IMG/VR virus record: IMGVR_UViG_3300025828_000016
Coordinates: 1-64,000 of that record
Length of the DNA stretch: 64,000 nucleotides
Reading direction: 5' to 3' (one strand)
From: a virus
Shown here: in pieces, positions 45,824 to 64,000 of the stretch
Numbering within the stretch: position 1 is the stretch's first letter
Layout: each line of letters opens with the position of its first letter
The notes under the pieces: model-generated
Told to the model about the DNA's origin: nothing
Seen by the model: the letters and a program-made list of their open reading frames with translations, nothing else
Databases searched by the model: none
Translations under genes and position numbers: made by a program

Positions 45824-45827
45824 TAAT

Positions 45828-48987: not shown

Positions 48988-49986
48988 TTATACTTCGTGA
49001 GGGGAACGAGAAAACACAACAGACTTAACAAAATGATTTGTGTTAAGTCGGCGTCGAATGTGATCTTCCATTCCGTGAGCATCTGAAAAGCGTTTGAGAG
49101 TTCCATTTTCGTTAACAGCGAAGTGACCAACATTTTCTAATACGTCCATTTTGTTGAAAACAATATGTGTTGCTCCATTAATGTTAACGGCTTTCTCCAA
49201 GAAGTTTAAGTTCATCCAGTTTACTTGGCGCTTTCTTCCTGTTGTTGCTCCGAACTCTTGCCCTTCCTCTTGAATTTTATTGAAAATATCGCCTGGAGGT
49301 TGAAATGTTTTAGAACCCACGTAAGTTTCATAAGACTTTGCTACTCCGTAAATGTTTCTTACTGCTTGTGGTGGAACACCGTTCATAAGCGCCGCTGCTG
49401 AAATACAGTTTGAAGAAGTTACATAAGGATAGGAACCCCAATCAATGTCTAGTCCAAAACCTTGTGCTCCCTCGAAAAGAATAACTGGGTTATGTGTTCT
49501 CTCGTGTAGTTCTTCGTAGAGGTCAATAAGATAAGGGCGAAGTTCAACAATATCCTCGGCACGAGTTCCAGTTCTAGCAAACTTATCACGGTAAGCGGGA
49601 CCGTTGCCTCGTTTAGTTGTGCCGATTTTTGATTCTTTTGCTTCTTCGTTAATGTGGTCTTGTGTGATAATGTGAGCGTTTTTAGCAATAAAAACGAGAC
49701 CTTTGGTTTTTACACCGCCGTCCTCTAACTCTTGAATTTCTTTAAAAAATTGTTCCACGTTGACGACACACCCCGGACCAATAATGGACCGAACGCCAAA
49801 AAATACACCGGCAGGTATATGATGAGTAATAAATTTTTTCCCTTGATGAAAGATAGTGTGACCGGCATTGCAACCGCCATTATATCTGATAACATGTGTG
49901 TATTCTCCTGTGCGACAAAGGTGATGAGTTACCTTTCCCTTTCCGCAATCGCCATACTGTAAATCAACTACGATATCTGAAATCAT
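48988..49986 (-). CDS. Adenylosuccinate synthetase homologue, short phage form (PurA/PurZ family)
   Basis: 332 residues against about 430 for bacterial PurA. Conserved pieces: LQYGDCGKGK (P-loop; Asp13 kept, the usual following Glu is Cys), GGCNAGHT (His43 kept), IGTTKRGNGPAYRD, EGAQGFGLDIDWGSYPYVTS, ATTGRKRQ, and the guanine-site FNKMDVL. The enzyme joins aspartate to a 6-oxopurine nucleotide using GTP. The short length matches phage PurZ, which makes 2-aminoadenine DNA from dGMP, but known PurZ proteins, as I recall, replace the catalytic Asp; its retention here points to IMP use or to a PurZ0-like variant. No MazZ or DatZ gene is in the window. Confidence 0.87.
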   Translation of the reverse strand: MISDIVVDLQYGDCGKGKVTHHLCRTGEYTHVIRYNGGCNAGHTIFHQGKKFITHHIPAGVFFGVRSIIGPGCVVNVEQFFKEIQELEDGGVKTKGLVFIAKNAHIITQDHINEEAKESKIGTTKRGNGPAYRDKFARTGTRAEDIVELRPYLIDLYEELHERTHNPVILFEGAQGFGLDIDWGSYPYVTSSNCISAAALMNGVPPQAVRNIYGVAKSYETYVGSKTFQPPGDIFNKIQEEGQEFGATTGRKRQVNWMNLNFLEKAVNINGATHIVFNKMDVLENVGHFAVNENGTLKRFSDAHGMEDHIRRRLNTNHFVKSVVFSRSPHEV

Positions 49987-50042: not shown

Positions 50043-51896
50043 TTAGTTTCCGCTACAAGCAGTTTCATCAAGGATTTGTAAAAGGTTTCCGTACATTTGT
50101 TCTGCGGAATCAGTAAGTTGCATCATTTTTGCTTTTGTAGAAGCATCAGTAATCGAAGACCATTGAAGATTCGCAAAACCAGAAGTAAAGGCATAAAGAT
50201 TAAAGTCAAGTGCCGCTTCTATTGCCGCTATTACGTTTGATTCTGTTATCTGTGGAAACAAATAAGATTGTGGTTTCTCGTCTGTAAATAATATAACAAC
50301 TCTTTTTGTGTCTTCACGCCATTCTACTTCCCATTCTTCTTTTGGAGGTATAGAACCAGCATTATAGTTAATATTTAACCAAGTCGCCGCATTTACATCA
50401 TAATCTCCACCGCCAACAAGATTTTTAATTGAAAAATAAATGGCGTCTAAACTTTGTTCGTTTCCTCCACTTTGCTGCAGAGGGTCTATCCCAGCGAAAG
50501 AAGACATAAAATCTTCAAAGTTATTTAGGTTTGTTTGTAGTTTCATTTTCTCTATTGGGAAAGAAGTTTCAGGGTCGTTTTCTCGAATAGCAATAAGAAC
50601 AAGTCCCCATCTTATAACCTCTGAATCGCTGTAATAAAGAGCAAACTGACTTAAGGCAGAAAACACAGCATTAATCTCAAAAGTCATAGAACCAGACATA
50701 TCTACAATAAATAAAATGTCTGTTGGGTCCAGTTCCTTTTCTATAATGCCGTCGCAGTTTGTATCTTCGCCATTACAAATGTCTTCGGTCATAGGAGCAA
50801 CTTCGTCTAAACAGAAATCAGGAATAAAAGAACCTTCAACATTATTTCCCCATTCTCCTTCTTTACAGAAAGAAAATCCAGGTTTACAAATGCCTACACC
50901 CATAGTTTGAGGTGGTCCGCTATAACAAAGAGCATAAAGATCTTCGTCTACAAGTTCGTTGCAGTTGTCGTCGTGATTATTGCACTCTTCTGGGATTATC
51001 TTGCCCAAATAAGGGTCGCAGACTTCACCTTCTGCTACAAAGTCTGGGAACCAATGACATTGAGCGAGACAATCCGTCATTTGGAAGGTGGTGCAAAGTT
51101 CGTCAGAACATTCACAAGTTTTAAAACCTTCTCCACAAACTAATGGGTTTTCAGCACAAGGAACTAACATTCCAAGGTCTTTTTCTTGACAGAAGCATTC
51201 TATTCCTTCGTCGATTTGACCGTCGCAGTCGTCGTCCAAACCATTACAGATTTCTTCTTTTGGTTTTTTTGCGGTGCAGACCCAGTTTCCAGCAACGCAA
51301 TATTCTAGGTTGTCCTCACAAGCAGTAGAGCAAGGACGCACAATATCTTCGTCTACTGCACCGTCGCAGTCATTATCAATATTATCGCAGGTTTCTTGCG
51401 GAACTATCCCACAAAAACCACAAGCATTTAGTTGCCCTTCGTCTGTTTCCCCATCACAGTCGTCGTCAAACCCATTACAAACTTCCTCACCGCAGTTTGC
51501 TATGCAATCTGTAAATTTTATTATTCCTTTTACGCAAACTTTGTCCTGTAAACCCTGCCTTCCTTCGTCGTCAACACAAGAAATATCTGTTTCGATAAGA
51601 TACTGGGTTGGGTTGCATTCTAGCTTTTTTTCGCATTCACCTTCATAGACAATAGTTTTAGGTTCATTACATTCATTTACGCAAATCTGTTTTTGCCAAA
51701 CCTCGGATAAATCTTCACAGAAATACCAAGAGCAAACAACACATGGGTCTTCCCAAATAGAGTAAGTGTCTTCTTGGATAACTAAATCAACAACGTCTTG
51801 TGTGTCTTCTGGTTGGACTGAAACTTCTTTTAGATCTTCCTGTTTATTGGAGCAAGAGGCGACAAGCACCAGAAATGAAAAGAGAATTGACTTCAT
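50043..51896 (-). CDS. Lipoprotein with MopE-type metal-binding repeats and von Willebrand A domain
   Basis: 617 residues. The start MKSILFSFLVLVASC is a lipoprotein signal with lipobox VASC. Five Cys/Asp repeats of MopE type follow, for example CNGFDDDCDGETDEG (about 135), CDNIDNDCDGAVDED, CNGLDDDCDGQIDEG, CNNHDDNCNELVDED and CNGEDTNCDGIIEKE (about 375). A vWA domain then starts at about 388 with an intact MIDAS (DILFIVDMSGSM). Such proteins are typical of Myxococcota and relatives, exported and disulfide-bonded. In a phage it could be a host-derived surface protein or an envelope-acting accessory. Convergent or late-type context unknown. Confidence 0.88.
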   Translation of the reverse strand: MKSILFSFLVLVASCSNKQEDLKEVSVQPEDTQDVVDLVIQEDTYSIWEDPCVVCSWYFCEDLSEVWQKQICVNECNEPKTIVYEGECEKKLECNPTQYLIETDISCVDDEGRQGLQDKVCVKGIIKFTDCIANCGEEVCNGFDDDCDGETDEGQLNACGFCGIVPQETCDNIDNDCDGAVDEDIVRPCSTACEDNLEYCVAGNWVCTAKKPKEEICNGLDDDCDGQIDEGIECFCQEKDLGMLVPCAENPLVCGEGFKTCECSDELCTTFQMTDCLAQCHWFPDFVAEGEVCDPYLGKIIPEECNNHDDNCNELVDEDLYALCYSGPPQTMGVGICKPGFSFCKEGEWGNNVEGSFIPDFCLDEVAPMTEDICNGEDTNCDGIIEKELDPTDILFIVDMSGSMTFEINAVFSALSQFALYYSDSEVIRWGLVLIAIRENDPETSFPIEKMKLQTNLNNFEDFMSSFAGIDPLQQSGGNEQSLDAIYFSIKNLVGGGDYDVNAATWLNINYNAGSIPPKEEWEVEWREDTKRVVILFTDEKPQSYLFPQITESNVIAAIEAALDFNLYAFTSGFANLQWSSITDASTKAKMMQLTDSAEQMYGNLLQILDETACSGN

Positions 51897-51912: not shown

Positions 51913-52266
51913 TTAGGTGAAAGTGTCGTCTATTTGAGGTAATTTTGTGATACGAGTTGAGATAATTCGGTCTCCGTCAGCGTCTTTCATAGTGCCGATT
52001 TTTTGACCGACTTGTTGTAGGTAAGTTAATGCTTTTCCTGGTTCAACGTAAAAACGAACATAAAGTTTCATTAGTTTATTATTGTTTGGGTCTCGCTGAA
52101 TACCTTCGGCGGCACGAATAACAGTGATACCTTCTATTCCACGGATAGCCTCAAACACACGACCATAAAGTTTAGTTGCGCTTTCTGCTTTTACGAGAAG
52201 TTCCGCTTCATAAACCGCTTTTTGTTCGGTTAAAAAGTATTTGAAGTTTTCAAAAAGGTTTTTCAC
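51913..52266 (-). CDS. Tagged protein: ENFKYFLTE N-terminal module (GTG start)
   Basis: 117 residues. Starts at GTG (52266) with MKNLFENFKYFLTEQK, a member of the ENWRxFLxE tag group, with LTE as candidate prohead-protease site. The body (VEAIRGIEGITVIRA-like strands and YVRFYVEPGKALTYLQQVGQ) resembles a small ferredoxin-like alpha/beta fold. No function recognised. Confidence 0.68.
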   Translation of the reverse strand: MKNLFENFKYFLTEQKAVYEAELLVKAESATKLYGRVFEAIRGIEGITVIRAAEGIQRDPNNNKLMKLYVRFYVEPGKALTYLQQVGQKIGTMKDADGDRIISTRITKLPQIDDTFT

Positions 52267-52277
52267 AGTTTATTGTC

Positions 52278-53114
52278 TTACTTACCTGTAACTGCTTTTG
52301 CAGTTTTAAGAACGCCCCTAAAAGCATCAGGGGCATCATTTATAATCTCAGCAGTTGTTCGGCTTCCGAAATCCATAATAGACTTAATTACATTTATTGT
52401 TTGTGCCTTGTATTCTTTTGGTATATCTGGGCTATCTATTGAACTAATCATATCTTTAAGTTCACTCGTGCCAAGTTTATAAACGACTTTTGCAGCACCT
52501 TTTAAGGTGTTAACATCTACCAGTTCTTTTGCATTTTGCAATTTTTCTAGTTCTGCAACTCCTCTTATGAAATGTTCAGCGGTATCAAAGGTTTGCGATT
52601 TGGCTGCAATTCCTTTTATAAAGTTGTATTTATCAATACTTATTGGTTTGCCACCAGCGGCTAATTTTGCTTGTGCTTCTGGAGCAAGAAACACTGACAT
52701 AACTAAAAATAGTAATAATGTCGCAAGTATTTTACATAAGATTGGTCTATTTTTACAAAATTTTCCGACTTTTTCAAAAATTTTTGCACCTGCTTTCAAA
52801 GCGGCAAATCCTGCTCTTTTTGCCATTTGCATAATCTGGATTGTTTTTTCAAGAACAAAATCACTTATTTTGTCTTTTACTTTTCCAACTGCTTGACCAA
52901 TTTTTTGACCAACCTCGCGAGCCTTATCAACAATGCTTTGTTCTAAAATTAGCAATTCTTTTTCAAGTTGATTAAACTCTCTATCAAATTCTTTTTCCCA
53001 TCTTTCATAGAGTTGAGTTTCGTTTATTACTTTTCTATCGTACTGTTCAAGCATTAACTGATATGGATTTTCATTAAACTTTTTCCAGTTTTCCATTATT
53101 AATTTTGTTTCCAT
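52278..53114 (-). CDS. Tagged membrane protein
   Basis: 278 residues from the ATG at 53114, which has AAAGGGGA nine bases upstream; the longer frame from 53174 lacks such a site. Begins METKLIMENWKKFNENP, a divergent ENW tag. A helical, coiled-coil region follows, then one strong membrane segment (CKILATLLLFLVMSVFLAP) at about residues 127-145. The C-terminal half is soluble and helical. Possible holin-like or injected channel role is speculation. Confidence 0.68.
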   Translation of the reverse strand: METKLIMENWKKFNENPYQLMLEQYDRKVINETQLYERWEKEFDREFNQLEKELLILEQSIVDKAREVGQKIGQAVGKVKDKISDFVLEKTIQIMQMAKRAGFAALKAGAKIFEKVGKFCKNRPILCKILATLLLFLVMSVFLAPEAQAKLAAGGKPISIDKYNFIKGIAAKSQTFDTAEHFIRGVAELEKLQNAKELVDVNTLKGAAKVVYKLGTSELKDMISSIDSPDIPKEYKAQTINVIKSIMDFGSRTTAEIINDAPDAFRGVLKTAKAVTGK

Positions 53115-53145
53115 TGCAAATTTCCCCTTTGAATCGTAAATATAA

Positions 53146-53487
53146 TTAGTTGCTTTCTTCCAAAGATCCACCAAAACCGGGAGGTGCCGACTTTGATCTT
53201 TTATAAGAAGGTTTAGTCATTCCTTTTACTTTATAATTATTACCACCTTTTCCAACAAGACGGATTTTCATTTTCTTGTGTTTCTTTTTTACTGCTTTCT
53301 GAAAAGGTTCTTCTTCGTTTAGGTTATCGCAAAACTGCTTCATAGAAAAACCCTTTGGGTTGTCGCACTTCTTTGCTCGTTTTCTTCTTTCTGACTTCGA
53401 CCACTTTTCTTGGAGACCGTTAGGTTCCATATAGGGATGGTCTTTGAGATACTTCGCCATTTTTGATGATACTTTAAACTTAATCAA
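53146..53487 (-). CDS. Basic Cys-containing protein (TTG start or internal ATG)
   Basis: 113 residues if the TTG at 53487 is used; an ATG at 53460 gives 104. The sequence KWSKSERRKRAKKCDNPKGF, then SMKQFCDNLNEEE resembles a conserved segment in marine-phage proteins I recall. Very Lys/Arg-rich, so nucleic-acid binding is plausible. Overlaps the neighbour by 8 bases. Confidence 0.62.
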   Translation of the reverse strand: MIKFKVSSKMAKYLKDHPYMEPNGLQEKWSKSERRKRAKKCDNPKGFSMKQFCDNLNEEEPFQKAVKKKHKKMKIRLVGKGGNNYKVKGMTKPSYKRSKSAPPGFGGSLEESN

Positions 53488-54112
53488 CTTTCACAAGTTC
53501 CTTCTTTTCTTTATCTAGTTTATAACCAGTTATTTCTGGGTCTACCTCGCCAACATTAAAGAAGTCGAAACCAGGGAGAATAGCAATCTTCTGTTCTGGA
53601 AAGAACCCTCTTTTTATAAAATGACTTGCCTGTCCTACGACCTCGGTGAAAAGTGCCCCTGCTGCTTCGGGAGGAACTGTTTTCATATGTCTATTGTAGG
53701 AGGCGATTTCACCACGAAGGTCAAAACCGGTTTTACCTTGACAGTGGGTCATGTAGTCATGAACTGCTCTCAACTTTAAGTTTAGTTCTGGGTCAAAGAC
53801 AGGGTGAGTAGTTCCACCAGACCAGATTTTTAGAACGCCGTTTTCTAGGGCGTCTTTACACATTTCTTTTTCGGAGGGATAAGGATCTTCATCTACAAAC
53901 TGAACGTCTACTCTGGACCCTATTTGTTTAAACATTTTATTTATGAAAGGTTCTAATGCCTCAAACGCAGGAACGGCAGATTCTTCGAAGGTCGGTGCTT
54001 TTTCATATGCTTGCGCTACGAGTTCTCCATAGAGATCCCAACCGTTTTCTCCTGGTTTGAGAACCAGTTTTTCATTTAGGAACTGTCTCCAGTTTTCAAA
54101 TAGAAGTTTCAT
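53480..54112 (-). CDS. Tagged protein: ENWRQFLNE N-terminal module
   Basis: 210 residues from the ATG at 54112, supported by GGAGG eight bases upstream; a TTG two codons earlier is less likely. Starts MKLLFENWRQFLNEKL with LNE as candidate cleavage site. The body contains LKLRAVHDYMTHCQGKTGFD and FTEVVGQASHFIKRGFFPEQ, which I recall from uncharacterised marine-phage proteins; the His/Asp pattern could be an active site but no family is certain. Confidence 0.7.
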   Translation of the reverse strand: MKLLFENWRQFLNEKLVLKPGENGWDLYGELVAQAYEKAPTFEESAVPAFEALEPFINKMFKQIGSRVDVQFVDEDPYPSEKEMCKDALENGVLKIWSGGTTHPVFDPELNLKLRAVHDYMTHCQGKTGFDLRGEIASYNRHMKTVPPEAAGALFTEVVGQASHFIKRGFFPEQKIAILPGFDFFNVGEVDPEITGYKLDKEKKELVKVD

Positions 54113-54695
54113 TTTCAACCTCCGGTATTACAACCGCCCAGTCTTCACCCCATTGGTTTGCTGGTGGAACGTCTCCACGACCAGACCAAGCAGAAAGAAC
54201 AGAATAAAGTTTATTATCTTCAAGTGCTCTTATTACCTCTGGGTCTTCTCTGAGACTTTCAGGGACATACTGTAAGTCGCTTGTTGGTCTAACTACTACT
54301 GATAGTTTGTCTGTCTTGAAATCTTCAAGAGGTTGAGAGGTTTTATAACCTTTGACGAATATTGGTCCTTGTCTGTCTTCTTTCTCTACTTCTACTTCTT
54401 GTGCGTTTTCTAACTCTTTTGCCTCACTATCGGGCAAAACCAAGTCATAACCAACACCTGGAACGTTAATAGTATAAACCGCTTGACTTGGGTTTACATC
54501 TATCTCTTCTAGTGCTTTATTTACCAAAGATAAATCAAAATCAGCAAATATAGAACCTTTTCCTGGTTCTTTGTGTCCTCTTTCGATATGACCCTTAGCC
54601 CAATCAGAAAATATTATTACAGAATCGTTAGTTTTTACAAGTTCGTCGGCTTCCTTTAATATATACTTACGCCAGTTTTCCATTAGAAGCTTCAT
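54096..54695 (-). CDS. Tagged protein: ENWRKYILKEA N-terminal module
   Basis: 199 residues beginning MKLLMENWRKYILKEADEL; LKE followed by Ala fits the T4-type cleavage rule well. The rest (IIFSDWAKGHIERGHKEPGK) contains a His/Asp-rich patch and ends with WGEDWAVVIPE. No domain recognised. Its 3' end overlaps the next tagged gene's start by 17 bases, so the two are tightly coupled. Confidence 0.7.
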   Translation of the reverse strand: MKLLMENWRKYILKEADELVKTNDSVIIFSDWAKGHIERGHKEPGKGSIFADFDLSLVNKALEEIDVNPSQAVYTINVPGVGYDLVLPDSEAKELENAQEVEVEKEDRQGPIFVKGYKTSQPLEDFKTDKLSVVVRPTSDLQYVPESLREDPEVIRALEDNKLYSVLSAWSGRGDVPPANQWGEDWAVVIPEVENETSI

Positions 54696-54967
54696 TTCTT
54701 GATAATCTCCACAATAAGTTTGTTCTTACCCATAAGTAGTCTGTGCCAAGTGTAAGCAGGAATAAAATAAGTCTGACCTTTCTCTAACTTCACCGGAACC
54801 TCGTTTTCCAGTTGTAAATGCCAATCTTTTGACTTTTCTACTGTTATTTGGCGGTCTTCACGGTCTTTATGCCAGATTAACTCACTATTTGAGGTGTTTT
54901 CAGCGTCAAAAATGCGAATAACCTTGTTTTCGGTTATTTTTATCTCTTCAAAGGGGAACTCACGCAC
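54692..54967 (-). CDS. Small cupin-like protein (GTG start)
   Basis: 91 residues. ELIWHKDREDRQITVEKSKD, the WHLQLE segment and QTYFIPAYTWHRLLMGKNKL form a single cupin barrel with two His-containing motifs. Starts at GTG 54967, overlapping the upstream TAG (TAGTG), with GGTAGG before it. No terminal tag. Metal or small-molecule binding is likely; substrate unknown. Confidence 0.7.
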   Translation of the reverse strand: MREFPFEEIKITENKVIRIFDAENTSNSELIWHKDREDRQITVEKSKDWHLQLENEVPVKLEKGQTYFIPAYTWHRLLMGKNKLIVEIIKK

Positions 54968-55551
54968 TACCAGAACCTACCGGGGACATTCTTACCAAAA
55001 TACTTGTGTGCTCGACAAGCCCAGTATCCTGCTTTGGTTTTATCTTTCTTTTCAGCGCAATTATGGCGATTTGCGAAGTTGGCACGAGCTTCAGCGTTAT
55101 TCCAGTTGCCTTTTAGACCGCCTTTCTTGTCTCCGAAGGTTACTTTTTTAATATTTCCGGTTTTTGGGTCTCTAACAAAGACTTTATACTTCTTTCCACC
55201 ACCAGAATTAAGAGTTGGTTTGTTAAGTGGCGGATTTTTCTTCTTTTTTGCCTTCTTTTTCTTCTCATCAAGGGGCATTGGGAAGTCAAGAGGCACTTTT
55301 TTGCCTTCATAGAGGGCGAATTCGCCAATATCAGTCTCATTTATCCAATATTTTTCGTTTTCGTCCAATTTATAGAGCCCATTTTTGGATAATTTGCGAA
55401 CTTCAGCAAATAACTCGAAATACTTGGTTGAACCCGGTCTAAAAATGTTCTCATTTAAGCGAATATTGTTCTTTAAATGGAACTTTAGACCCTCGGACAG
55501 TAGGTTGTCCATTTCTTCACGAATAATACGTTTTAGTTCGAAAAGTTTCAT
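54967..55551 (-). CDS. Tagged basic protein: KRIIREEM module and Cys/His C-terminal domain
   Basis: 194 residues from the ATG at 55551 (AAAGGA upstream). Starts MKLFELKRIIREEMDNLLSE, related to the MKITK tag, IRE as candidate site. A Lys-rich segment at about 97-106 is followed by a conserved C-terminal domain, KYKVFVRDPKTGNIKKVTFG, then NFANRHNCAEKKDKTKAGYW and ACRAHKYFG. This domain recurs in many marine-phage proteins as I recall. Highly basic; DNA association in the head is plausible. Confidence 0.72.
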   Translation of the reverse strand: MKLFELKRIIREEMDNLLSEGLKFHLKNNIRLNENIFRPGSTKYFELFAEVRKLSKNGLYKLDENEKYWINETDIGEFALYEGKKVPLDFPMPLDEKKKKAKKKKNPPLNKPTLNSGGGKKYKVFVRDPKTGNIKKVTFGDKKGGLKGNWNNAEARANFANRHNCAEKKDKTKAGYWACRAHKYFGKNVPGRFW

Positions 55552-55573
55552 TATTTCTAGTCCTTTAATCCTT

Positions 55574-56059
55574 TTATGCTTGTTGTTTTTGCATTGCATC
55601 TGGACCTTTTGCAATTGGTACCATATAAACGGTGTTTGGATCTCTAGGTTCGAATACGAAAGCCCTAGTTACACCAGAACCAGGGTTCTCATCAACAAAG
55701 TCAATAAAAATTTGACCAGGGTTTGCCTTTTCAAACGCTTTTATTTTTTCTGGTTTAAACTCTCCCTGTCGTTTTAGTTGTATATAACGCTCTTTGGTGT
55801 CGATATGTGGAACATGTACGGATAATGCATCTTTGGTTAGTTCCACATCTTTTGCGTTGGGAGAGCGTCTTCGATGTTTTCTAGTATCAAACTTTGCATC
55901 CGAGTAACTCATCTTTCTGAATTGAGAAATGTGACCGCCCCAACCGGGATCTAAAACATCCCAGGTGCTTGCTTCTTTGTCCATACCTGATAATTCTTCT
56001 TTTAGGATTTGTATCTCTTCTTTAATAATATCTTTTAGTTGATTTTTTGTGATTTTCAT
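55574..56059 (-). CDS. Tagged protein: MKITKNQLKDIIKEEI module
   Basis: 161 residues. The first 16 residues are a clear member of the MKITK tag group, IKE followed by Glu as candidate site. The body (RRSPNAKDVELTKDALSVHV; FIDFVDENPGSGVTRAFVFE) has no recognised domain. Overlaps the upstream basic Cys-rich gene by 4 bases. Confidence 0.7.
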   Translation of the reverse strand: MKITKNQLKDIIKEEIQILKEELSGMDKEASTWDVLDPGWGGHISQFRKMSYSDAKFDTRKHRRRSPNAKDVELTKDALSVHVPHIDTKERYIQLKRQGEFKPEKIKAFEKANPGQIFIDFVDENPGSGVTRAFVFEPRDPNTVYMVPIAKGPDAMQKQQA

Positions 56060-56670
56060 CCTTTTTTCCCCTTTGCTGTTTTCTTACCCCAAGACTTTCC
56101 ACGTCCTCGCTCTTTACAAGCACCAGGAGTGGGACGACAAGCAGGATATTTTGCTCGTTTTTCGCCTTTTTCACGACCACATGCTTTACATTTAGTTCGA
56201 CCGGTCTTTTTATCTTTACGGCAAGTGTTACAGTCTACCCAACCGCCTTTTTTACCTTTTGCGCCTTTGCGTTTAAACCAGTCTCTTAGTGAGGATTCTT
56301 TGCTTGATTCAGTTCCCGCTTTCTTTTTTTTTTCGTCTAACTCTATTTCGACAATGTATCCTTCTTCTGGTTCGTCGGCACAGTTGCCTTCTTTGATGCC
56401 TTTCCAGATTTCACCACGACGGCATCTTACAACAGCACCAGAAGCATAAGCAGACGGCCAAGTATCGTATTTGCGTTTAGCAATGCGGACACAACGGTCG
56501 TCTTTTTTCTTTTTCTTCTTCTTTTTTTTCTTTTTCTTTTTTTCGTCGAGGGTTTCATCGACAGAGGATAAGACTTCGATGTCGTTGTCTTCTGTATCAA
56601 CAGGGTTCTGAATATTTCTACCAGCGGGAGGTGATAGGACTATTTCTCTTATGTTGATACTTATTGACAT
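56056..56670 (-). CDS. Lys-rich, Cys-rich protein with 13-Lys run
   Basis: 204 residues. After an acidic N-terminus there is an uninterrupted run of 13 lysines at about residues 45-57. Two Cys-rich segments follow: DRCVRIAKRKYDTWPSAYAS, and GGWVDCNTCRKDKKTGRTKC with CKACGREKGEKRAKYPACRP, ending in a Lys/Gly tail. I recall the latter motif (CRPTPxACK...GKSWGKK) in phage and giant-virus hypotheticals. Zinc-ribbon-like, nucleic-acid-binding nature is likely. The N-terminus (SINIREIVLS) has an IRE site but is not clearly a tag. Confidence 0.7.
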   Translation of the reverse strand: MSISINIREIVLSPPAGRNIQNPVDTEDNDIEVLSSVDETLDEKKKKKKKKKKKKKDDRCVRIAKRKYDTWPSAYASGAVVRCRRGEIWKGIKEGNCADEPEEGYIVEIELDEKKKKAGTESSKESSLRDWFKRKGAKGKKGGWVDCNTCRKDKKTGRTKCKACGREKGEKRAKYPACRPTPGACKERGRGKSWGKKTAKGKKG

Positions 56671-56894
56671 TATTTAGGTTTTCCTTCCATTTTTCTTACC
56701 AAAGAGTAGATTTCCCATCTCTTAAGTTTGCGTGCCATAGCAGCAATGTTAAATAGTTGTGGAGTTTGGACAAATGGAAAAATGCCGTGGACTAGTAGAC
56801 AACAAGATGACACGAGCATGTGAAATGCTGCTCTCCAGGCAAATTTGAGGTGTCCGAAGTAAGTTTCATTATTTTCTTTTAGATGCTTAATCAT
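56670..56894 (-). CDS. DUF6356-like small membrane protein
   Basis: 74 residues. HLKENNETYFGHLKFAWRAA followed by a hydrophobic helix (HMLVSSCCLLVHGIFPFV) is the pattern of the DUF6356 family, short membrane proteins of phages and marine bacteria, function unknown. Cytoplasmic basic tail. Its ends overlap both neighbours by one base. Confidence 0.72.
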   Translation of the reverse strand: MIKHLKENNETYFGHLKFAWRAAFHMLVSSCCLLVHGIFPFVQTPQLFNIAAMARKLKRWEIYSLVRKMEGKPK

Positions 56895-57289
56895 TAACCC
56901 ACACCCAAAGAACCTGACCAGTTAGAACCAGATGGTGAAATATTAGTGATACGGTCTGATGAAATACCTGTAAGACCAGCAAAAACATCAACGTCTCCAG
57001 AACCACTCAGCCAAACTTGTGAAACTTTAACTTCAAATCTTTCAGAAGCGGTTTGACCTCTTACTGTGAAGTAGTTTGTACCGGCGCCATCAACTCCCAG
57101 TTCTGAAAACCCAACTCTACATACGTTAGCAGTGTTATTCACAACATAAATCCACCTAGATACAGATGGGAATTCTACACTCATAGTTTCAGAAGCATCA
57201 AGACCACCACTAACAAACGGCTTGCCGCTGGATTGATAAGAACCGACATTACTTAATCCGGTACCGTATTTATAATCTGGATAAGACAT
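56894..57289 (-). CDS. Structural protein, paralogue of 58863-59279
   Basis: 131 residues, Ser/Gly/Val-rich beta protein beginning MSYPDYKYGTGLSNVGSYQ and ending NWSGSLGVG. Both ends match the 138-residue gene on the other side of the 520-residue gene, so these are paralogues. Likely a capsid-decoration or fibre-tip subunit. No enzymatic motif. Confidence 0.78.
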   Translation of the reverse strand: MSYPDYKYGTGLSNVGSYQSSGKPFVSGGLDASETMSVEFPSVSRWIYVVNNTANVCRVGFSELGVDGAGTNYFTVRGQTASERFEVKVSQVWLSGSGDVDVFAGLTGISSDRITNISPSGSNWSGSLGVG

Positions 57290-57305
57290 TTAAATCTCCT
57301 TTTTA

Positions 57306-57319
57306 TGTAAGTAGTTAGT
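57306..57319. promoter_or_regulatory. Recurrent TAACTAYTTA intergenic element
   Basis: Minus strand reads ACTAACTACTTACA between the 520-residue gene's end and the start of the 131-residue gene. Same core as at 48955, 50025, 61125 and 63124. Confidence 0.3.
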
Positions 57320-57327
57320 TTGTCTTC

Positions 57328-58863
57328 TTATTGCTGTTCAAACCAACTTATTCCACCTAACCCTGCAACTGCTGCGGTTGTACTAACAGCAAGTAATAAG
57401 TTGTTACCAACTCCAAAAGCAAAACTTAAACTTTTTAAATCCTTTGACACGCCTTGACCCGCTCCTGCTACAACTTCGTAAATGGGTGTAAGATTGGAAA
57501 TATTTACAATAGCATTACTTGCTGGATCTAAGGCAGCATAAGAAACAATGCTTTCCTGCTCGTCAATATATTGATAGTTTACCTCTCCAGTTACTTCAAC
57601 ATTTAAAAAGAGTGCTATTGTTACTGTTTTCGGTGTTGCACCACCAGATTCATTCGATGCTCTTATGTCCAATACATCAAACTCGCCAAAGCAACTTTGA
57701 TCTTTAAAAACTCTGTTTGTTTTAAAAAGAGCAAGCGGTTTATAAACTCCGCTAGTATCGACAGAAAAACTAAAAGATTTAGAAAATTTAGGATCTAGTG
57801 AATTAACTTCACCCTCAATAAAACCAGCCATAGAAGCAGTTTTTAATTTTTTACTTGTTGTGCCTCCAATATTGGCAGAGGTAGCCAAAATAGCAACATT
57901 TGGATTTTTTAGAACTGGTGTTGTCCTAGCGTTTGCGTTTTTTATTCTATGAAACTTTGCTGTATGTCCTGTTTCTGGGTCTTCTACAAAGAAATCAGCA
58001 TTACCGTATCCTAAATACTGGAAATCAATTTCATAAACATTTCCCTTTTGAGGGTCCAAAGTCATTCCACTTGGTCCTGTGCCGTCCATTTTATCAACAT
58101 TAAAAGAAGCAGAAGGAATGAAATCGTTAGACTGCGCTTCACCCTCTACCACTCTTGTGAAAGCTCCAACAATAGAACCACCAGAAGAAACAGAATAGGT
58201 GCTAGTAAGACCAGCGGCAGAACGAGCAGAAATAAAATAAACAGAACCAGACTGTGCGTCTGCTAACCAGCCACCTGTTCCAAGTTGCGAATAATCTGCT
58301 TTAGCAAGTTGATAAGCGGTTTGCTCTGGGGAGCCAGCGCCCACTACTGGAACGACTTGACTATAACCGTTTAGAGTAACTGTAACGTTTTCGGTTCCTG
58401 CTCCTGTTGTAATGTCTAGTCTTCTTATCTCACGAGAACCAGAGATAGAGTGTAGAATACCAAAATTAGTTCCAAAGTAACCAACAAAATAACCGCATTC
58501 TGCCGTTCCACCACCGATAAATTGAGCGTTTCCTGCGTCTGGTTCAGAGAAAAGAGCGGTTGCTTTTAAAGCAGAACCTTGTCCTGGTCTGTATTTTAGC
58601 CCTCTTCTTAGTTGAACTGTCGCAGAGCCAGAAGCAGAAGTTCCGCTGCTTAATTCACATTGACCATCTACTACGGCAATTGATGCGCCAGCAAAAGACG
58701 AAGAAATAAAATTTTGATTTCCTATGCCATAAACAAAATCGCCTTGAGCGATAGGGTTTTTTCTAGAAACCAAAACTTCACCAAAGGTTGAGTTTGGAGA
58801 AGCAATGTGAACGTTATCAGCGCCGAGCGTCTTTTTTGGTTTATTTAAATCAGTAAATCCCAT
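57328..58863 (-). CDS. Virion structural protein, fibre- or decoration-like
   Basis: 511 residues from the ATG at 58863 (GGTAGGAT upstream, TAATG overlap with the previous stop). Beta-rich, Ala/Ser/Gly-rich, no Cys-rich or catalytic motif. Segments such as AQFIGGGTAECGYFVGYFGT and NVYEIDFQYLGYGNADFFVE resemble virion decoration proteins of large phages. It is sandwiched between two paralogous small structural proteins, suggesting one assembly. Confidence 0.72.
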   Translation of the reverse strand: MGFTDLNKPKKTLGADNVHIASPNSTFGEVLVSRKNPIAQGDFVYGIGNQNFISSSFAGASIAVVDGQCELSSGTSASGSATVQLRRGLKYRPGQGSALKATALFSEPDAGNAQFIGGGTAECGYFVGYFGTNFGILHSISGSREIRRLDITTGAGTENVTVTLNGYSQVVPVVGAGSPEQTAYQLAKADYSQLGTGGWLADAQSGSVYFISARSAAGLTSTYSVSSGGSIVGAFTRVVEGEAQSNDFIPSASFNVDKMDGTGPSGMTLDPQKGNVYEIDFQYLGYGNADFFVEDPETGHTAKFHRIKNANARTTPVLKNPNVAILATSANIGGTTSKKLKTASMAGFIEGEVNSLDPKFSKSFSFSVDTSGVYKPLALFKTNRVFKDQSCFGEFDVLDIRASNESGGATPKTVTIALFLNVEVTGEVNYQYIDEQESIVSYAALDPASNAIVNISNLTPIYEVVAGAGQGVSKDLKSLSFAFGVGNNLLLAVSTTAAVAGLGGISWFEQQ

Positions 58864-59279
58864 TATCCTACCCCCACAGAACCAGACCAATTATTAGCAA
58901 GGTGACTTTGATCGATCCCTGTTAAACCAGCGATAACAGAAGCACTACACTCATTTGGGCTATCGCTCATAAGATAAACAGAAGTTACTTTAAACTCTGC
59001 TTCAAATGATTCTCCATTATTTAAAATAGCATAATTACTGTCTTCTATTCCCTGCACACCGTTTGCCGAAAAACCAAAACGAAGAGGAACATTAGGAGCA
59101 CTTCCTGCTAGTGTGTTCGTGATAATTACAAATCTTGTTACTGAATCAAAAGAAACTTCTTTTGGTGTATTCCCAGAAGCAGGAACATTTAGTGAAGAAG
59201 TTAGATAAGGTCGTGCTGAAACTTGATAAGAACCAACATTCCTTAGACCTGTTCCATAGCTGTAATTTGGATAAGACAT
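58863..59279 (-). CDS. Structural protein, paralogue of 56894-57289
   Basis: 138 residues: MSYPNYSYGTGLRNVGSYQV start and NWSGSVGVG end as in its paralogue, with VIAGLTGIDQSHLANNWSGS near the C-terminus matching FAGLTGIS. Probably forms hetero-assemblies with its paralogue and the 520-region protein. Confidence 0.78.
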   Translation of the reverse strand: MSYPNYSYGTGLRNVGSYQVSARPYLTSSLNVPASGNTPKEVSFDSVTRFVIITNTLAGSAPNVPLRFGFSANGVQGIEDSNYAILNNGESFEAEFKVTSVYLMSDSPNECSASVIAGLTGIDQSHLANNWSGSVGVG

Positions 59280-60055
59280 TATTGATTAACTCCCATTAAA
59301 GCATCGTATGAATCTGTTCTAATATTATTTAGTTTCTCTAAATAATCGTTTCTTCGGAGGACTTTAAAAACTAGATTTTCAACCGAATAGATCCCACCGC
59401 TTTCCAAACCTGCTTTTCTATAACGCTTGATACGTTCCATAATAGCATCACCCGCTTGTTTTGCTTGTAGGAAATCTTTTTCAGCATACATATCGTAAGC
59501 ATCATCGATCTCGTCCATTATTCTGGCAGCTTTCTCTTTTACCATTTTATAATCGACGTTCATTCTACTGCTTGATGGTCTTTGCACCCAGCGATTGTTC
59601 ATAAGAGAATAAACCCCAGCAGAATGATGAGGTTCGTTTGTATCTTGAACATAGATTTCAACTTCAAAACCCTTGAAGAGAATTTTGTGAATTATATTCC
59701 ACAGTCTTGATTTCTGACTTAGATAATCTTTTAGAAGTTCTTTATCTTTTAACTGGTTAAAATCAATAAGAATATGAAGATCAAAGTCTGACATATCAGA
59801 CCAATTGTAAGACGCAAGAGAACCTGTGAGGGTAATATCTTTTATCTTTACATTGGGATCTAACTTGAGATCTTCGAAATATTCGTTGGCGATATTGAGG
59901 GCTGCCTGAAGAATCTCTGGATCAAGTTGTTGGTTCCTGGTCCAGAGATCTTCAGGCAGGGAGGTTTTCGAAATTAAGGTGGAGGTGTTAACTGACTCGG
60001 GTTCTATTAGTTCCTCAAGATAAGTTCTCCAAGTGTTCCAATTGTTTGAGTTCAT
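59279..60055 (-). CDS. Tagged nucleotidyltransferase-fold protein (pol-beta superfamily)
   Basis: 258 residues. The N-terminal NNWNTWRTYLEELIEPE resembles the ENWRxFL tag, LEE as candidate site. The core ITLTGSLASYNWSDMSDFDL, then HILIDF has the GS...DxD pattern of MNT/pol-beta-type nucleotidyltransferases, with a later VEIYVQD acidic strand. Helical C-terminus. It might modify tRNA, protein or nucleotide; packaged-enzyme role is inference. Confidence 0.75.
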   Translation of the reverse strand: MNSNNWNTWRTYLEELIEPESVNTSTLISKTSLPEDLWTRNQQLDPEILQAALNIANEYFEDLKLDPNVKIKDITLTGSLASYNWSDMSDFDLHILIDFNQLKDKELLKDYLSQKSRLWNIIHKILFKGFEVEIYVQDTNEPHHSAGVYSLMNNRWVQRPSSSRMNVDYKMVKEKAARIMDEIDDAYDMYAEKDFLQAKQAGDAIMERIKRYRKAGLESGGIYSVENLVFKVLRRNDYLEKLNNIRTDSYDALMGVNQ

Positions 60056-60058
60056 GCA

Positions 60059-60271
60059 TTAATTAGTTAGTCCTTCTAAGAATTTCTCATTTACATGTCC
60101 ACATTTAGAACACTTAAATAATTGAATTGGCACCATAGTTTCTTTGCCGGTTGGTGACATCAAAGCACTAATATTTTTTATAATGAATGCAGGAATAAAT
60201 GTCTCATTCTCGCATTCTTCACATTTTATATTATCTACATTGCTTAGGTCGATATTGATATTTTGGTTCAT
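60059..60271 (-). CDS. Small zinc ribbon protein
   Basis: 70 residues with CEECENETFIPAF and FKCSKCGHVNEK, a four-cysteine ribbon. Marine-phage homologues are common as I recall. Likely a small zinc-binding protein; no further function. Confidence 0.75.
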   Translation of the reverse strand: MNQNINIDLSNVDNIKCEECENETFIPAFIIKNISALMSPTGKETMVPIQLFKCSKCGHVNEKFLEGLTN

Positions 60272-60316
60272 AATAATAAAAATCTTTTAATTTTGTTTAT
60301 AAATTCTTTTCTTTTT

Positions 60317-60496
60317 TTATTTTTGAAATCGTTTAACCACCGCCTCAAAACGTTGAGACACCTCTGTTACGAGGGTTGTGTAGTTGTTTTTAAGGACAGT
60401 TACCTCGTCAAGAAGACGAGAATTTGTCACGCTAAGTTGTGATACTCGCTTTTCTAGCGCAGTAACTTGTTGTTCTAGTTCTTTATTAGTAGCCAT
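60317..60496 (-). CDS. Short coiled-coil protein (59 residues)
   Basis: Translated by hand from the ATG at 60496 to the TAA at 60317: MATNKELEQQVTALEKRVSQ, then a second heptad run to RFEAVVKRFQK. Strong AGGAGG nine bases upstream. A parallel coiled coil is predicted for most of the length. Preceded by its own -10 element. Confidence 0.72.
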   Translation of the reverse strand: MATNKELEQQVTALEKRVSQLSVTNSRLLDEVTVLKNNYTTLVTEVSQRFEAVVKRFQK

Positions 60497-60523
60497 AAAA
60501 ATAACCTCCTTTGGCTTTCCTAT

Positions 60524-60552
60524 ATTATAACTTAATTTTATTGGGATTTTAA
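60524..60552 (-). promoter_or_regulatory. Sigma70-like promoter for the 59-residue gene
   Basis: Minus strand: TTAAAA (60552-60547), 17-base spacer, TATAAT (60529-60524), about 28 bases before the ATG. Confidence 0.5.
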
Positions 60553-60734
60553 TCTAAAATGAGTTTTTCTAGTCTATCTTCAAGTTCTAGTTCCCAAAGT
60601 TGTAGATCTTCCAAGACTTCCTTGGGGACATCTACTCCGATAGATACAAGATACCTTGCCCTTCCTAAAGTTTCTCTAACCTCAGCAAGGTCTTTTCTTA
60701 ATCTAAACTCGTCTATGTATACTACATTATTCAT
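60549..60734 (-). CDS. Small helical protein
   Basis: 61 residues, acidic and helical (RKDLAEVRETLGRARYLVSI; VLEDLQLWELELEDRLEKL). No family recognised. Followed after 52 bases by the 59-residue coiled-coil gene. Confidence 0.6.
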   Translation of the reverse strand: MNNVVYIDEFRLRKDLAEVRETLGRARYLVSIGVDVPKEVLEDLQLWELELEDRLEKLILD

Positions 60735-60764
60735 TGTTTCTCACGGAAACTACATTAAGTCAGG

Positions 60765-61091
60765 TCAGGTTTCTTCGTCAATTGTATCTTCTTCTTGAGC
60801 GTCAGCCTGTTCACCTTTCATATAATTCATAACAGCACTCATATAATCTTGTGCTTTTGTGATTTTTGATTCTACCCACTCTGGAAGGTTTGTATCGTCA
60901 TCAACCATTTCATCAATCATCGTAGCAAGGTCAGCAATGCGGTTTAGTTGAGAGTCAGCCATAGCGCCTTCGCCATCTCCATCGCCATCATCCATTTGCT
61001 TTCTAGCACGGGCTGCGAGATATGTGCCGAGAACTTCGGACTGTATTTCTTCTTTGATAAGTTCTTTTAATCTTGCTTTTGTTATCTTCAT
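60765..61091 (-). CDS. Tagged protein: MKITKARLKELIKEEI module
   Basis: 108 residues. The first 20 residues are a textbook MKITK tag with IKE site. The remainder is acidic and helical (LATMIDEMVDDDTNLPEWVE), ending in an acidic tail. The ATG has GAGGATAA upstream. No domain recognised. Confidence 0.72.
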   Translation of the reverse strand: MKITKARLKELIKEEIQSEVLGTYLAARARKQMDDGDGDGEGAMADSQLNRIADLATMIDEMVDDDTNLPEWVESKITKAQDYMSAVMNYMKGEQADAQEEDTIDEET

Positions 61092-61124
61092 GTGTTATTA
61101 TCCTCTTGTAGAAAAAGAAGTTTC

Positions 61125-61132
61125 TATAAATA
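61125..61132 (+). promoter_or_regulatory. T4-late-like TATAAATA element
   Basis: Exact TATAAATA eight bases before the ATG at 61141. If used as a late promoter the transcript would be almost leaderless. The same bases, read on the minus strand as TAACTATTTATA, belong to the recurrent element upstream of the tagged 108-residue gene. Confidence 0.4.
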
Positions 61133-61140
61133 GTTATTCA

Positions 61141-61476
61141 ATGTTTAAAGGTATTTTAATATTTATTTTAGGTCAAACCTTCGCTTGGTTTAGCATTAAT
61201 TTGCAATTTATGAGCGAATGGTGGAAAGAAAGACCAGTATTCACAGCATTGGTGTTTTCTTTCCCAGTTGGTTTGATGTTTTTATATGGCACAAAATGGA
61301 TTGTTCAGGATGCTGGTTATTATTGGGCGTCAAGGATTATAGGGTTTTCTATATCCACAATAATCTATTCGATTCTAACTTGGTTCTTTCTTGGAGAATC
61401 TTTTTTAGAAACAAAAACTTTAATCTGTTTAGTGTTGTCAATTATCATAGTTTGTATACAAGTATTCTGGAGATAA
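61141..61476 (+). CDS. Small four-helix membrane protein (DMT/EamA-like)
   Basis: 111 residues from the ATG at 61141, chosen over an upstream in-frame start at 61024 that reads through the tagged gene's antisense. Four hydrophobic helices, starting FKGILIFILGQTFAWFSINL, and the third GFSISTIIYSILTWFFLGES resembling half a drug/metabolite transporter. Similar short proteins occur in marine phages and bacteria. Lacks a ribosome binding site; possible leaderless start. Confidence 0.68.
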   Translation: MFKGILIFILGQTFAWFSINLQFMSEWWKERPVFTALVFSFPVGLMFLYGTKWIVQDAGYYWASRIIGFSISTIIYSILTWFFLGESFLETKTLICLVLSIIIVCIQVFWR

Positions 61477-61477
61477 T

Positions 61478-61696
61478 ATGGAAGTTTGGTTAATCAGAAG
61501 AGCAATGGGACCGCAGACATCTGTGGAGGGTGTATTTAAAAGTCATTCATCTGCTGTCAGGTGGTTTAATAAAAATGCGAAAGAACACGAACAATGGTTG
61601 CCGTCCAAAAGAGACAGCGCAAAAAAGATTGTTTCTTGGAAAAGCGAATATCATGGTGGTGAAATGCGTTTAGAAAAGTGGGAAGTCAAAAGGTAA
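61478..61696 (+). CDS. Small basic protein
   Basis: 72 residues with GGAGA six bases upstream. Sequence RRAMGPQTSVEGVFKSHSSA, then VRWFNKNAKEHEQWLP; basic, no domain recognised. One base after the membrane protein, so co-transcribed. Confidence 0.6.
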   Translation: MEVWLIRRAMGPQTSVEGVFKSHSSAVRWFNKNAKEHEQWLPSKRDSAKKIVSWKSEYHGGEMRLEKWEVKR

Positions 61697-61803
61697 TTTA
61701 AAAAAAATTTTTATCTACCATATATCCAACACCCCCTAATCATAGCACTTTCTCCCACTTATAGCAGAGCAGTCTATCGTTTAGGTCTTTTGGGCATTCC
61801 GTG

Positions 61804-61818
61804 CGTCTATTTAAGACG
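61804..61818 (+). promoter_or_regulatory. Short hairpin before the 81-residue gene
   Basis: CGTCT-ATTTA-AGACG, a five-base-pair stem ending three bases before the ATG at 61821. No Shine-Dalgarno sequence is present, so it may control or replace it. Confidence 0.35.
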
Positions 61819-61820
61819 TA

Positions 61821-62066
61821 ATGTTGATAAACTCCAAAGGGCGGAAAAAGGGGGATCTCGCTCTAATAAAATACAAAGATGAACCACCTAAGTTTGTGAT
61901 CTTTCTTGGTCACTATTATGATCTATACAAAAAGAATTTTTTTCATTGGGCAGGGGAAGGTTCCATTGGACCGCCTGTGTTTCTAGAACAGTTGCCCAAT
62001 GGAGAATGGGTTGAAATGTCACGTCAATACAATAAGAAGTATCTTTCGATTGAGTGGTTTAGTTAG
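61821..62066 (+). CDS. Small protein, paralogue of 63682-63906
   Basis: 81 residues. KKGDLALIKYKDEPPKFVIF, later PVFLEQLPNGEWVEMS and the C-terminal EWFS match the 74-residue plus-strand gene at 63682 (GALAIIK, PLVFSEQREDGSWV, YLEWLT). An SH3-like beta barrel is plausible. Converges with a minus-strand gene two bases downstream. The start has no clear ribosome binding site. Confidence 0.62.
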   Translation: MLINSKGRKKGDLALIKYKDEPPKFVIFLGHYYDLYKKNFFHWAGEGSIGPPVFLEQLPNGEWVEMSRQYNKKYLSIEWFS

Positions 62067-62067
62067 A

Positions 62068-62829
62068 TTAACTTTTGATCTCTTCTCTAATCATTTGCTT
62101 TAAACGAGATTGGGTTAGTTTGTTTTCTTCAAATCTTCTTCTACCTCTTCTGCTTCTCTGTGGAAGATAGCTTTGTGCTTGTCTCGCTTGTCGTCTAGCA
62201 ATACCGGCTGGGCTATCGTGATAATCGTCTCTTTCATCCTCATAGTCATATCTACGACTTGGGCGACTTTTAGGACGCTCTTTTTCTGGTTCTTTTTTCT
62301 TTGTTTTAGCCACAAAGTAGGTATTATCAGGCATATTCTCAAGGTCTTCTTCAGTAACACTCATAAAAGCACTTTTTACTGCTGGATCTTCGATTAACTC
62401 TGCGCCGCTTTTAAGGTAGTCCAAAGCTCTCTCTGGAGATAAATTAAGTCCACCCTTTGTGCCGCCACCAGACCACCCTTCTGTACCCCAGCCGACGCCA
62501 CGATCTAAGCCAGTAAACGGATTAACGTCTCGAAACACAATCAGCACATTTACGCTGCCGTTGTTTTTACCAAGAATAAGACCCTCGCCGCCTTCCATAA
62601 CGTGATCTTCAAGATCTTTCATGCCGGGGTCTTCTTCTTTTGCCCTATCTCTTTCTGGTCCAGTAATCCAATAATTGGAAGGAAATTCATAAACGCCAGA
62701 GGGTAGATTATCAAAATCTAAACCTTCGCCTTCAGTTTCTTCAACCTCGGCTTCCATTTCTTCAGCTTCCATAATGCTTTGTAGTTCTTCTTTGATTAAC
62801 TGCTTGAGTTTTGATTTGGTGATTTTCAT
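62068..62829 (-). CDS. Doubly tagged protein: MKITK module at both ends
   Basis: 253 residues. N-terminus MKITKSKLKQLIKEELQS, C-terminus LTQSRLKQMIREEIKS: the same module at both ends, both with (I)xE sites. The body contains YWITGPERDRAKEEDPGMKD, a Gly/Trp-rich WGTEGWSGGGTKGG and an Arg-rich, Tyr/Asp-rich region at about 185-225. No domain recognised. Confidence 0.75.
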   Translation of the reverse strand: MKITKSKLKQLIKEELQSIMEAEEMEAEVEETEGEGLDFDNLPSGVYEFPSNYWITGPERDRAKEEDPGMKDLEDHVMEGGEGLILGKNNGSVNVLIVFRDVNPFTGLDRGVGWGTEGWSGGGTKGGLNLSPERALDYLKSGAELIEDPAVKSAFMSVTEEDLENMPDNTYFVAKTKKKEPEKERPKSRPSRRYDYEDERDDYHDSPAGIARRQARQAQSYLPQRSRRGRRRFEENKLTQSRLKQMIREEIKS

Positions 62830-62843
62830 TTTTGGTTCCTTTA

Positions 62844-63083
62844 TTAATCGTCTTCGAACTCACGTTGAGCCACTTTAACTATTTTTGCTAAAAACTTTGC
62901 TGATGTAGTGTATCCGTGTGTTGGGTTAAACTCTCCTGGGTCAACAACTTCTATGTTTGTATCATATCCATCATCAGATATGCTAACTTCTACAAATTGA
63001 CCTTCAGAAAACTCTTCTTCGTCATATTGTTCTTTTAGTGTTTCAACAATAAGTTGTTTAAGTTTGGATTTGGTAATTTTCAT
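62844..63083 (-). CDS. Tagged protein: MKITKSKLKQLIVETL module
   Basis: 79 residues. First 12 residues identical to the preceding gene's N-terminus, then IVE in place of IKE. Body VEVSISDDGYDTNIEVVDPG and FLAKIVKVAQREFEDD. Its ribosome binding site (GAGGAG) and the promoter at 63109-63137 are both clear. Confidence 0.74.
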   Translation of the reverse strand: MKITKSKLKQLIVETLKEQYDEEEFSEGQFVEVSISDDGYDTNIEVVDPGEFNPTHGYTTSAKFLAKIVKVAQREFEDD

Positions 63084-63681: not shown

Positions 63682-63906
63682 ATGGTTGAAGGCGCTTTAG
63701 CGATAATAAAAGTTGGCAAGAAAACTAGATTCAGTGTCTATAGGGGTAGATACTCTGAATTCTATGGTAAAAAAGATGCCTTATTTACAAAGAAATTTGC
63801 CGGGGAAGACCCGCTTGTGTTCTCGGAGCAACGAGAGGACGGGTCATGGGTAATAAGGCATTATTTTTTTAAAAGTAGCGATTTATACTTAGAGTGGTTA
63901 ACTTAG
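63682..63906 (+). CDS. Small protein, paralogue of 61821-62066
   Basis: 74 residues. GALAIIKVGKKTRFSVYRGR, PLVFSEQREDGSWV and C-terminal YLEWLT align with the 81-residue gene at 61821. Basic, probably SH3-like. Likely expressed early from its own leaderless promoter. Confidence 0.62.
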   Translation: MVEGALAIIKVGKKTRFSVYRGRYSEFYGKKDALFTKKFAGEDPLVFSEQREDGSWVIRHYFFKSSDLYLEWLT

Positions 63907-64000
63907 TTAGGGACTTCTTCCACAACCCCAGTAACCGTTAGGTCGCCCTTAAAAGGCTCGAAATTGTCTTCGGGAATTTTGTTAGAGTGGAAAGGTTTTC
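63903..64000 (-). CDS. Partial minus-strand gene, C-terminus only
   Basis: The frame is open from the right edge to a TAA at 63905-63903, giving KPFHSNKIPEDNFEPFKGDL and TVTGVVEEVPN. It converges with the plus-strand gene, overlapping its stop by four bases. Not recognised. Confidence 0.45.
   Translation of the reverse strand, partial: KPFHSNKIPEDNFEPFKGDLTVTGVVEEVPN

Follow-up and report, generated by a model that had tools for sequence, protein, structure and literature searches.

The first 64,000 bases of the 85,499-base IMG/VR virus record IMGVR_UViG_3300025828_000016 (hereafter the window), from a marine T4-like phage, contain a cluster of genes whose proteins share one of two short terminal modules and little else. 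Ten window proteins begin with either module A (MKITKxxLKxLIKEE) or module B (KLxxENWxxFLxE), and the two are interchangeable tag modules on unrelated bodies. By inspection of its gene content and by its relatives, the record is that of a T4-like myovirus. Sequence comparisons across these phages indicate that A and B are very probably interchangeable capsid-targeting tags of a T4-type head, which the gp21 protease likely cuts after (I/L)-x-E. Tags of this kind are known from T4, whereas tag A, the exchange of tags, proteins tagged at two ends and the hundreds of cargo families look new.

An earlier note on this DNA had placed A at 56059, 61091, 62829 and 63083, with a variant at 55551, and B at 52266, 53114, 54112 and 54695, with a divergent copy at 60055; all were found at these starts. 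The whole-record motif scan that it had proposed adds a C-terminal A in 62068-62829, a B on 63903-64352 and an A on 65215-65658. Tagged genes are confined to ~51.9-65.7 kb of the record, at a density of about ten genes per 14 kb:

52225..52266, minus strand: module B VKNLFENFKYFLTE, start of the 117-residue protein 51913-52266; kept in relatives (11-sequence cluster)
53076..53114, minus strand: module B METKLIMENWKKF, start of the membrane protein 52278-53114; LxE shifted downstream to QLMLE
54071..54112, minus strand: module B MKLLFENWRQFLNE, start of the phrog_3170-like protein 53480-54112
54651..54695, minus strand: module B MKLLMENWRKYILKE, start of the protein 54096-54695; tagged homologue at L229:5617-6189
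55513..55551, minus strand: module A variant MKLFELKRIIREE, start of the basic Cys/His protein 54967-55551
56015..56059, minus strand: module A MKITKNQLKDIIKEE, start of the protein 55574-56059
60011..60055, minus strand: divergent module B MNSNNWNTWRTYLEE, start of the nucleotidyltransferase-like protein 59279-60055
61047..61091, minus strand: module A MKITKARLKELIKEE, start of the protein 60765-61091
62071..62121, minus strand: C-terminal copy of module A KLTQSRLKQMIREEIKS, the second A of the protein 62068-62829
62785..62829, minus strand: module A MKITKSKLKQLIKEE, start of the same protein 62068-62829
63039..63083, minus strand: module A MKITKSKLKQLIVET, start of the 79-residue protein 62844-63083
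63903-64352, minus strand, 3' part 63903..64000 in the window: B-tagged gene MKLILERWNQYLLTEN, whose start lies past the window end
65215-65658, outside the window: A-tagged gene from the whole-record scan

The divergent module at 60055 is counted as B because its homologues in L225, L230 and L296, which align with it, bear canonical or near-canonical B modules.

Both modules occur far beyond chance expectation. A two-motif profile, applied at the N-terminus with a score of at least 14 to 1,365 open reading frames (ORFs) from 58 sources (1.2 Mb, the seeds being among the matches), recovered 53 ORFs with A and 44 with B, against 0.2 and 0.0, respectively, in shuffled proteins. Exact degenerate patterns of A and B each gave at least 120 matches in the 2.9 million viral contigs of IMG/VR, in which a permuted A pattern gave none. 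Across 85,000 cellular genomes, the A pattern was confined to 7 stretches in four metagenome-assembled genomes (MAGs); these stretches are likely binned phage DNA, because two of the four MAGs also hold a gp21-type protease. A tblastn search of the phage collection with an artificial 29-residue A tag returned no match, the query probably being masked or too short. In the literature searched, which comprised open-licence papers only, no prior description of module A was found. Possible relatives of module A also occur outside the tagged cluster, as an internal LRGIIRSLIKEA stretch in 45089-45838 and at the C-terminus (LRDAVRDILAEM) of 48202-48951, a HELVHH-motif protein.

The bodies behind the tags are unrelated, as had been claimed from the window. 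Tagged proteins drawn from loci found by the tag patterns and from loci around divergent proteases amount to 604 non-identical sequences in about 390 body clusters. When 110 representatives of different clusters were compared, alignment was confined to the tag (consensus MKLxxENWRxxIxEE), with almost nothing beyond it. Conversely, one body can carry either tag: L296:7074-7328, which bears B, and L177:1068-1337, which bears A, have colinear bodies that begin where the tag stops, and the body of the window protein 54967-55551 bears a canonical A in L180 (L180:3238-3780) and a B in L264 (L264:3173-4237). The swap between L296 and L177 is the closest computational indication that a tag might suffice to carry a foreign protein into the head. 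Several bodies resemble enzymes. The protein 63903-64352 matches the tRNA ligase phosphodiesterase domain PF08302 (27.0 bits, cut-off 23), and 59279-60055 reaches 18.3 bits with NTP_transf_2, under the cut-off of 21. Tagged bodies elsewhere match PNK/HAD plus Nudix, nucleotidyltransferase and Zeta toxin/AAA kinase families, as well as M23 and YkuD wall enzymes and GNAT, GDSL and ParB-like families. By analogy with T4 IPI and Alt, these functions plausibly fit delivered roles in host take-over or counter-defence.

The genomic position of tagged genes in relatives links them to head assembly. T4 portal and gp21 were searched for across the whole record and neither was found, the head genes not being in it. 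Through the neighbouring protein 45828-47948, 26 related loci were reached, and all three of the longest relatives (104, 131 and 139 kb) contain a Peptidase_S77 gp21-type protease together with a T4 portal. The protease on which the earlier note's proposal depended is thus present in relatives that contain the head module. Genes in these relatives run in the order terminase, portal, small genes, gp21, variable genes, an ORF beginning MKKSQLK, a basic 80-residue ORF and a gp22-like scaffold, followed by a gp23-like capsid gene where the record extends so far. An order of portal, gp21, one or more tagged inserts, gp22 and gp23 is found in two of the three long relatives; the third, G005, is without an insert.

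Across 34 loci around gp21, the variable genes up to the MKKSQLK ORF begin with A or B, with one exception, and several unrelated bodies are represented among these inserts. With a model trained on the ten tags of this record only, which replaces an earlier test, tags were recognized on 17 of the 18 distinct variable ORFs that separate gp21 from the scaffold genes, compared with 18 of 358 (5%) elsewhere (Fisher p = 6.7e-19, a value that overstates independence, the 18 inserts coming from related phages and not all being independent). Seven further A-tagged ORFs lie directly upstream of gp21. The pattern recurs farther afield: of 21 divergent T4-like records selected because a tag occurs somewhere in them, many have tagged ORFs on the flanks of gp21 (L333, L335, L336, L339, L341, L343 and L346 among them). 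The layout of 62068-62829, with A at both ends, recurs in the gp21-gp22 insert of the relatives G007, L066, L073, L076 and L095.

Co-occurrence of the tags with gp21 is clearest where the portal is present. A T4 portal occurs in 29 tag-bearing records, of which 25 also have gp21; the other four end within about 2.5 kb of the portal. In records of at least 97 kb, gp21 was found in 21 of 27 tag records, and matches were also obtained in five of seven random controls; none of the five is an ORF of T4 length, and one falls below the cut-off. Three of the controls share one match and probably represent one phage type. Among shorter records the counts were 7 of 26 with tags versus 3 of 15 controls. 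Because the set of random contigs is small, adjacency and portal co-occurrence are preferred as evidence.

Both modules hold a cleavage-like site at a characteristic position. In A, I-x-E falls at fixed alignment columns 11-13, its glutamate being kept in 26 of 27 body clusters, and about half have a second glutamate some 8 residues further, at column 21, mostly within (L/V/I/M)-x-E. In B, 13 of 16 clusters have (I/L)-x-E after the second aromatic residue, where shuffles yield 4.5. Register was also counted in 48 A and 48 B tags drawn from loci that had not been selected with the pattern in question, replacing a partly circular statistic over all B tags. In this set, (I/L/V)-x-E is in register in 47 of the 48 A tags. 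Among the B tags, W/F and F/Y stand three apart in 41 and the full aromatic-x-x-aromatic-(LIVM)-x-E is in exact register in 29, while (I/L)-x-E occurs 44 times at columns 11-12. Some B tags have the site shifted by a spacer (KFEQQTLNE, RFSTLTE), which resembles the site-like ITE after a spacer in T4 IPI. Within the window, an (I/L)xE near residues 9-14 had been claimed for every module; the claim holds except at 53114, the sole module without the site at residues 9-15, which has IME at residues 6-8 and a later MLE.

The spacing of B is that of a proven signal. In the T4 capsid-targeting sequence (CTS), residues 4 and 7 direct targeting and residues 8 and 10 processing (PMC9026906). The CTS of T4 IPIII is MKTYQEFIAE, and B keeps its aromatic-x-x-aromatic-(I/L)-x-E spacing, a strict pattern found near the N-terminus of only IPII and IPIII among 87 T4 ORFs. 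A B profile seeded from this record and its relatives, with T4 sequences left out, places gp21 at the top of 86 T4 proteins, at QLLIETW, and gp21 N-termini score above shuffles. The propeptides of gp21 itself may target it to the core, and the LIE site has been discussed in that context (PMC9026906). Module A shows no conserved aromatics at the T4 targeting positions; on this feature it is not a T4-type CTS, though it may work like one. The earlier reading of the modules as packaging tags is supported by the crowding of tagged genes around gp21 and gp22, by the swapping of tags on one body and by the CTS-like spacing of B.

These features suggest a route through the T4-type head. A tagged protein would bind the prohead scaffolding core (gp22 and its partners) during core assembly, and the shell would then enclose the bound protein ahead of DNA filling. 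A gp21-type protease would cut the tag after (I/L)-x-E, in A at I-K-E (residues 12-14), with the frequent second site about 8 residues on, and in B at (F/Y)-L-x-E near residue 14; trimming by gp21 is likely. The trimmed body would remain in the head together with the DNA. Ejection into the host is plausible only, with about an even chance; once there, several of the bodies would serve as enzymes of take-over or counter-defence.

Several observations weigh against this route. The (I/L)xE site is a weak motif, and 53114 does not have it at the normal position. Taken together, the core proteins of T4 gain no higher scores than the remaining T4 proteins with either profile (B, p = 0.28; A, p = 0.14); for this reason descent of the tags from the T4 CTS is not shown, and the resemblance of B to the CTS appears to be one of working alike. 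The record that contains the window stops short of the head genes, and the phages whose gp21-side inserts were counted are related, not every insert being an independent event. A gp21-type protease also exceeded the cut-off in 7 of 22 random control contigs, five of these matches being in much longer ORFs. In VH7D (KVP40-like) and cyanophage S-WAM2, there is no gene between gp21 and gp22. Both the virion presence and the cleavage of tagged proteins are predictions from sequence.

Other explanations can be set against targeting of cargo. Instead of cargo that is kept in the virion or delivered, the tags might mark structural parts of the prohead core, analogous to T4 gp67 and gp68, that are broken down and expelled as the head matures. 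Many tagged genes do adjoin gp21 and gp22, some tagged proteins are small, acidic or of low complexity, and the conserved MKKSQLK ORF beside gp22 resembles a core protein with an A-like start. However, the bodies include apparent enzymes, from tRNA-ligase phosphodiesterase, PNK/HAD plus Nudix and nucleotidyltransferase to Zeta-toxin/AAA kinase, M23, YkuD, GNAT and GDSL, and, in contrast to core structural genes, they change fast and are often distant from the head module, which makes a purely structural role rather unlikely. The tags might instead bind another hub, such as the tail, the baseplate or a transcription or replication complex, with the neighbourhood of gp21 serving as a convenient insertion site for late genes. 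Capsid-core binding is itself predicted, and the tagged cluster of the window lies far from head genes and adjoins tail and periphery genes. The near-complete tagging of gp21-side inserts against the low rate elsewhere, the match of B to a proven capsid-targeting spacing and the conservation of (I/L)xE at fixed positions nevertheless render a different hub quite improbable.

Lys/Ile/Glu-rich protein starts are common in AT-rich phages, so modules of this composition might arise by chance or as translation-start artefacts of Lys/Ile-rich AT codons, or be left over in recent paralogues with no common function. Such an origin is scarcely credible given the near absence of matches in shuffles, the empty result for the permuted A pattern and the rarity of A in cellular genomes, and also because A occurs in C-terminal copies, the bodies do not align and the tags swap on one body.

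Capsid targeting by A and B can be compared with several known systems. Like T4 IPI, IPII, IPIII and Alt, the proteins described here carry a short N-terminal tag on unrelated, diverse and fast-changing bodies. T-even internal proteins form a diverse set with only the CTS in common (PMC3012670), and the CTS has been named as a possible route by which T4-like phages package various proteins (PMC9026906). The likeness to T4 internal head proteins extends to the aromatic-x-x-aromatic-(I/L)-x-E spacing of B and to the gp21-type protease of the relatives. In contrast to T4, there are two distinct tags, hundreds of body families across phages and a C-terminal A on some proteins, and no T4 counterpart of A was found. 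T4 Alt, which is processed by gp21 at both termini (PMC9026906), sets a precedent for the layout with A at each terminus, although its N-terminus, MELITELFDED, is not A-like. In phage P1, an N-terminal sequence of DarB suffices for head entry of a foreign protein, and the Dar cargo is counter-defensive (PMC9024508); the likeness lies in head entry and in the type of cargo. P1, in contrast, appears to be without a separate scaffolding protein. The ejection proteins of SPN3US and phiKZ are likewise enclosed in the head and trimmed by a gp21-related protease at short x-x-E sites (AxE in SPN3US; PMC10052503). Unlike the tags described here, most SPN3US propeptides are 111-254 residues long and are not reported as a shared short module (PMC10052503).

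It is finely balanced whether a general system of protein delivery, with two exchangeable head-loading tags and hundreds of injected families, is common to T4-like myoviruses from the sea and elsewhere. Those families would include RNA-end repair enzymes, nucleotidyltransferases, kinases and wall enzymes. If such a system exists, a 14-residue pattern would reveal the head-carried proteins of an uncultured phage, and its injected proteome could be listed from sequence. Hundreds of unassigned phage genes would become candidate injected effectors and counter-defence proteins, and two new tags would be available for putting foreign proteins into phage heads. Cargo selection by the T4-type core would also become directly testable through two unlike tags that apparently do the same job.

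In the window, tail and baseplate genes are followed by a block of sugar and nucleotide genes and then by the tagged cluster, mostly on the minus strand. Untagged genes within the tagged stretch include those at 56056, 54692, 56894, 57328 and 58863. Two proteins that are untagged here have tagged or tag-fused relatives:

53146..53487, minus strand: basic Cys-containing protein; in L225:4508-5728 the same domain is joined to a nucleotidyltransferase under a B tag
56056..56670, minus strand: basic Cys-rich phrog_727-like protein; B-tagged homologues at L241:790 and L264:3173

The basic Cys-containing domains of 53146-53487, 54967-55551 and 56056-56670 are shuffled and fused in other phages. L264:3173-4237 joins the 56056 and 54967 bodies beneath a single B tag, and the PNK/Nudix protein L030:3534-4517 bears a 53146-type tail. 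The body of 53480-54112 has a homologous region within gp205 of Rhodococcus phage E3, for which the annotation reads structural protein (the basis of this annotation not being available). AlphaFold models of 54096-54695 and 53480-54112, built on thin alignments, had mean predicted local distance difference test (pLDDT) scores of 54.9 and 52.7 and were uninterpretable, and PDB sequence searches with 63903-64352 and 54096-54695 gave nothing significant.

T4 late-promoter octamers (TATAAATA) number 11 in the record, with ~13 expected, and none lies directly before a tagged gene. Repeated sigma-70-like sequences such as TTGACAAATAAAAAAAATAAAAATAATATA stand ahead of several short genes at ~71-75 kb of the record (L002) and are perhaps early promoters; none were noticed ahead of tagged genes.

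Elsewhere in the window, 48988-49986 encodes a 332-residue adenylosuccinate synthetase-like protein that scores below the cut-offs of all NCBIfam models, including PurZ. A predicted lipoprotein at 50043-51896, with Cys-rich DxDCDG-like repeats, a VWA-like DMSGS motif and no NCBIfam match, adjoins the tagged cluster here and in the relative G007. Within the cluster, 56894-57289 and 58863-59279 are paralogues from a small family with the motif xxGLxNVGSYQxSGxPFxxG. Relatives of this family adjoin gp21 and gp22 in the T4-like records L088, L089, L334, L337, L348 and L351, and its members are perhaps head or virion proteins.

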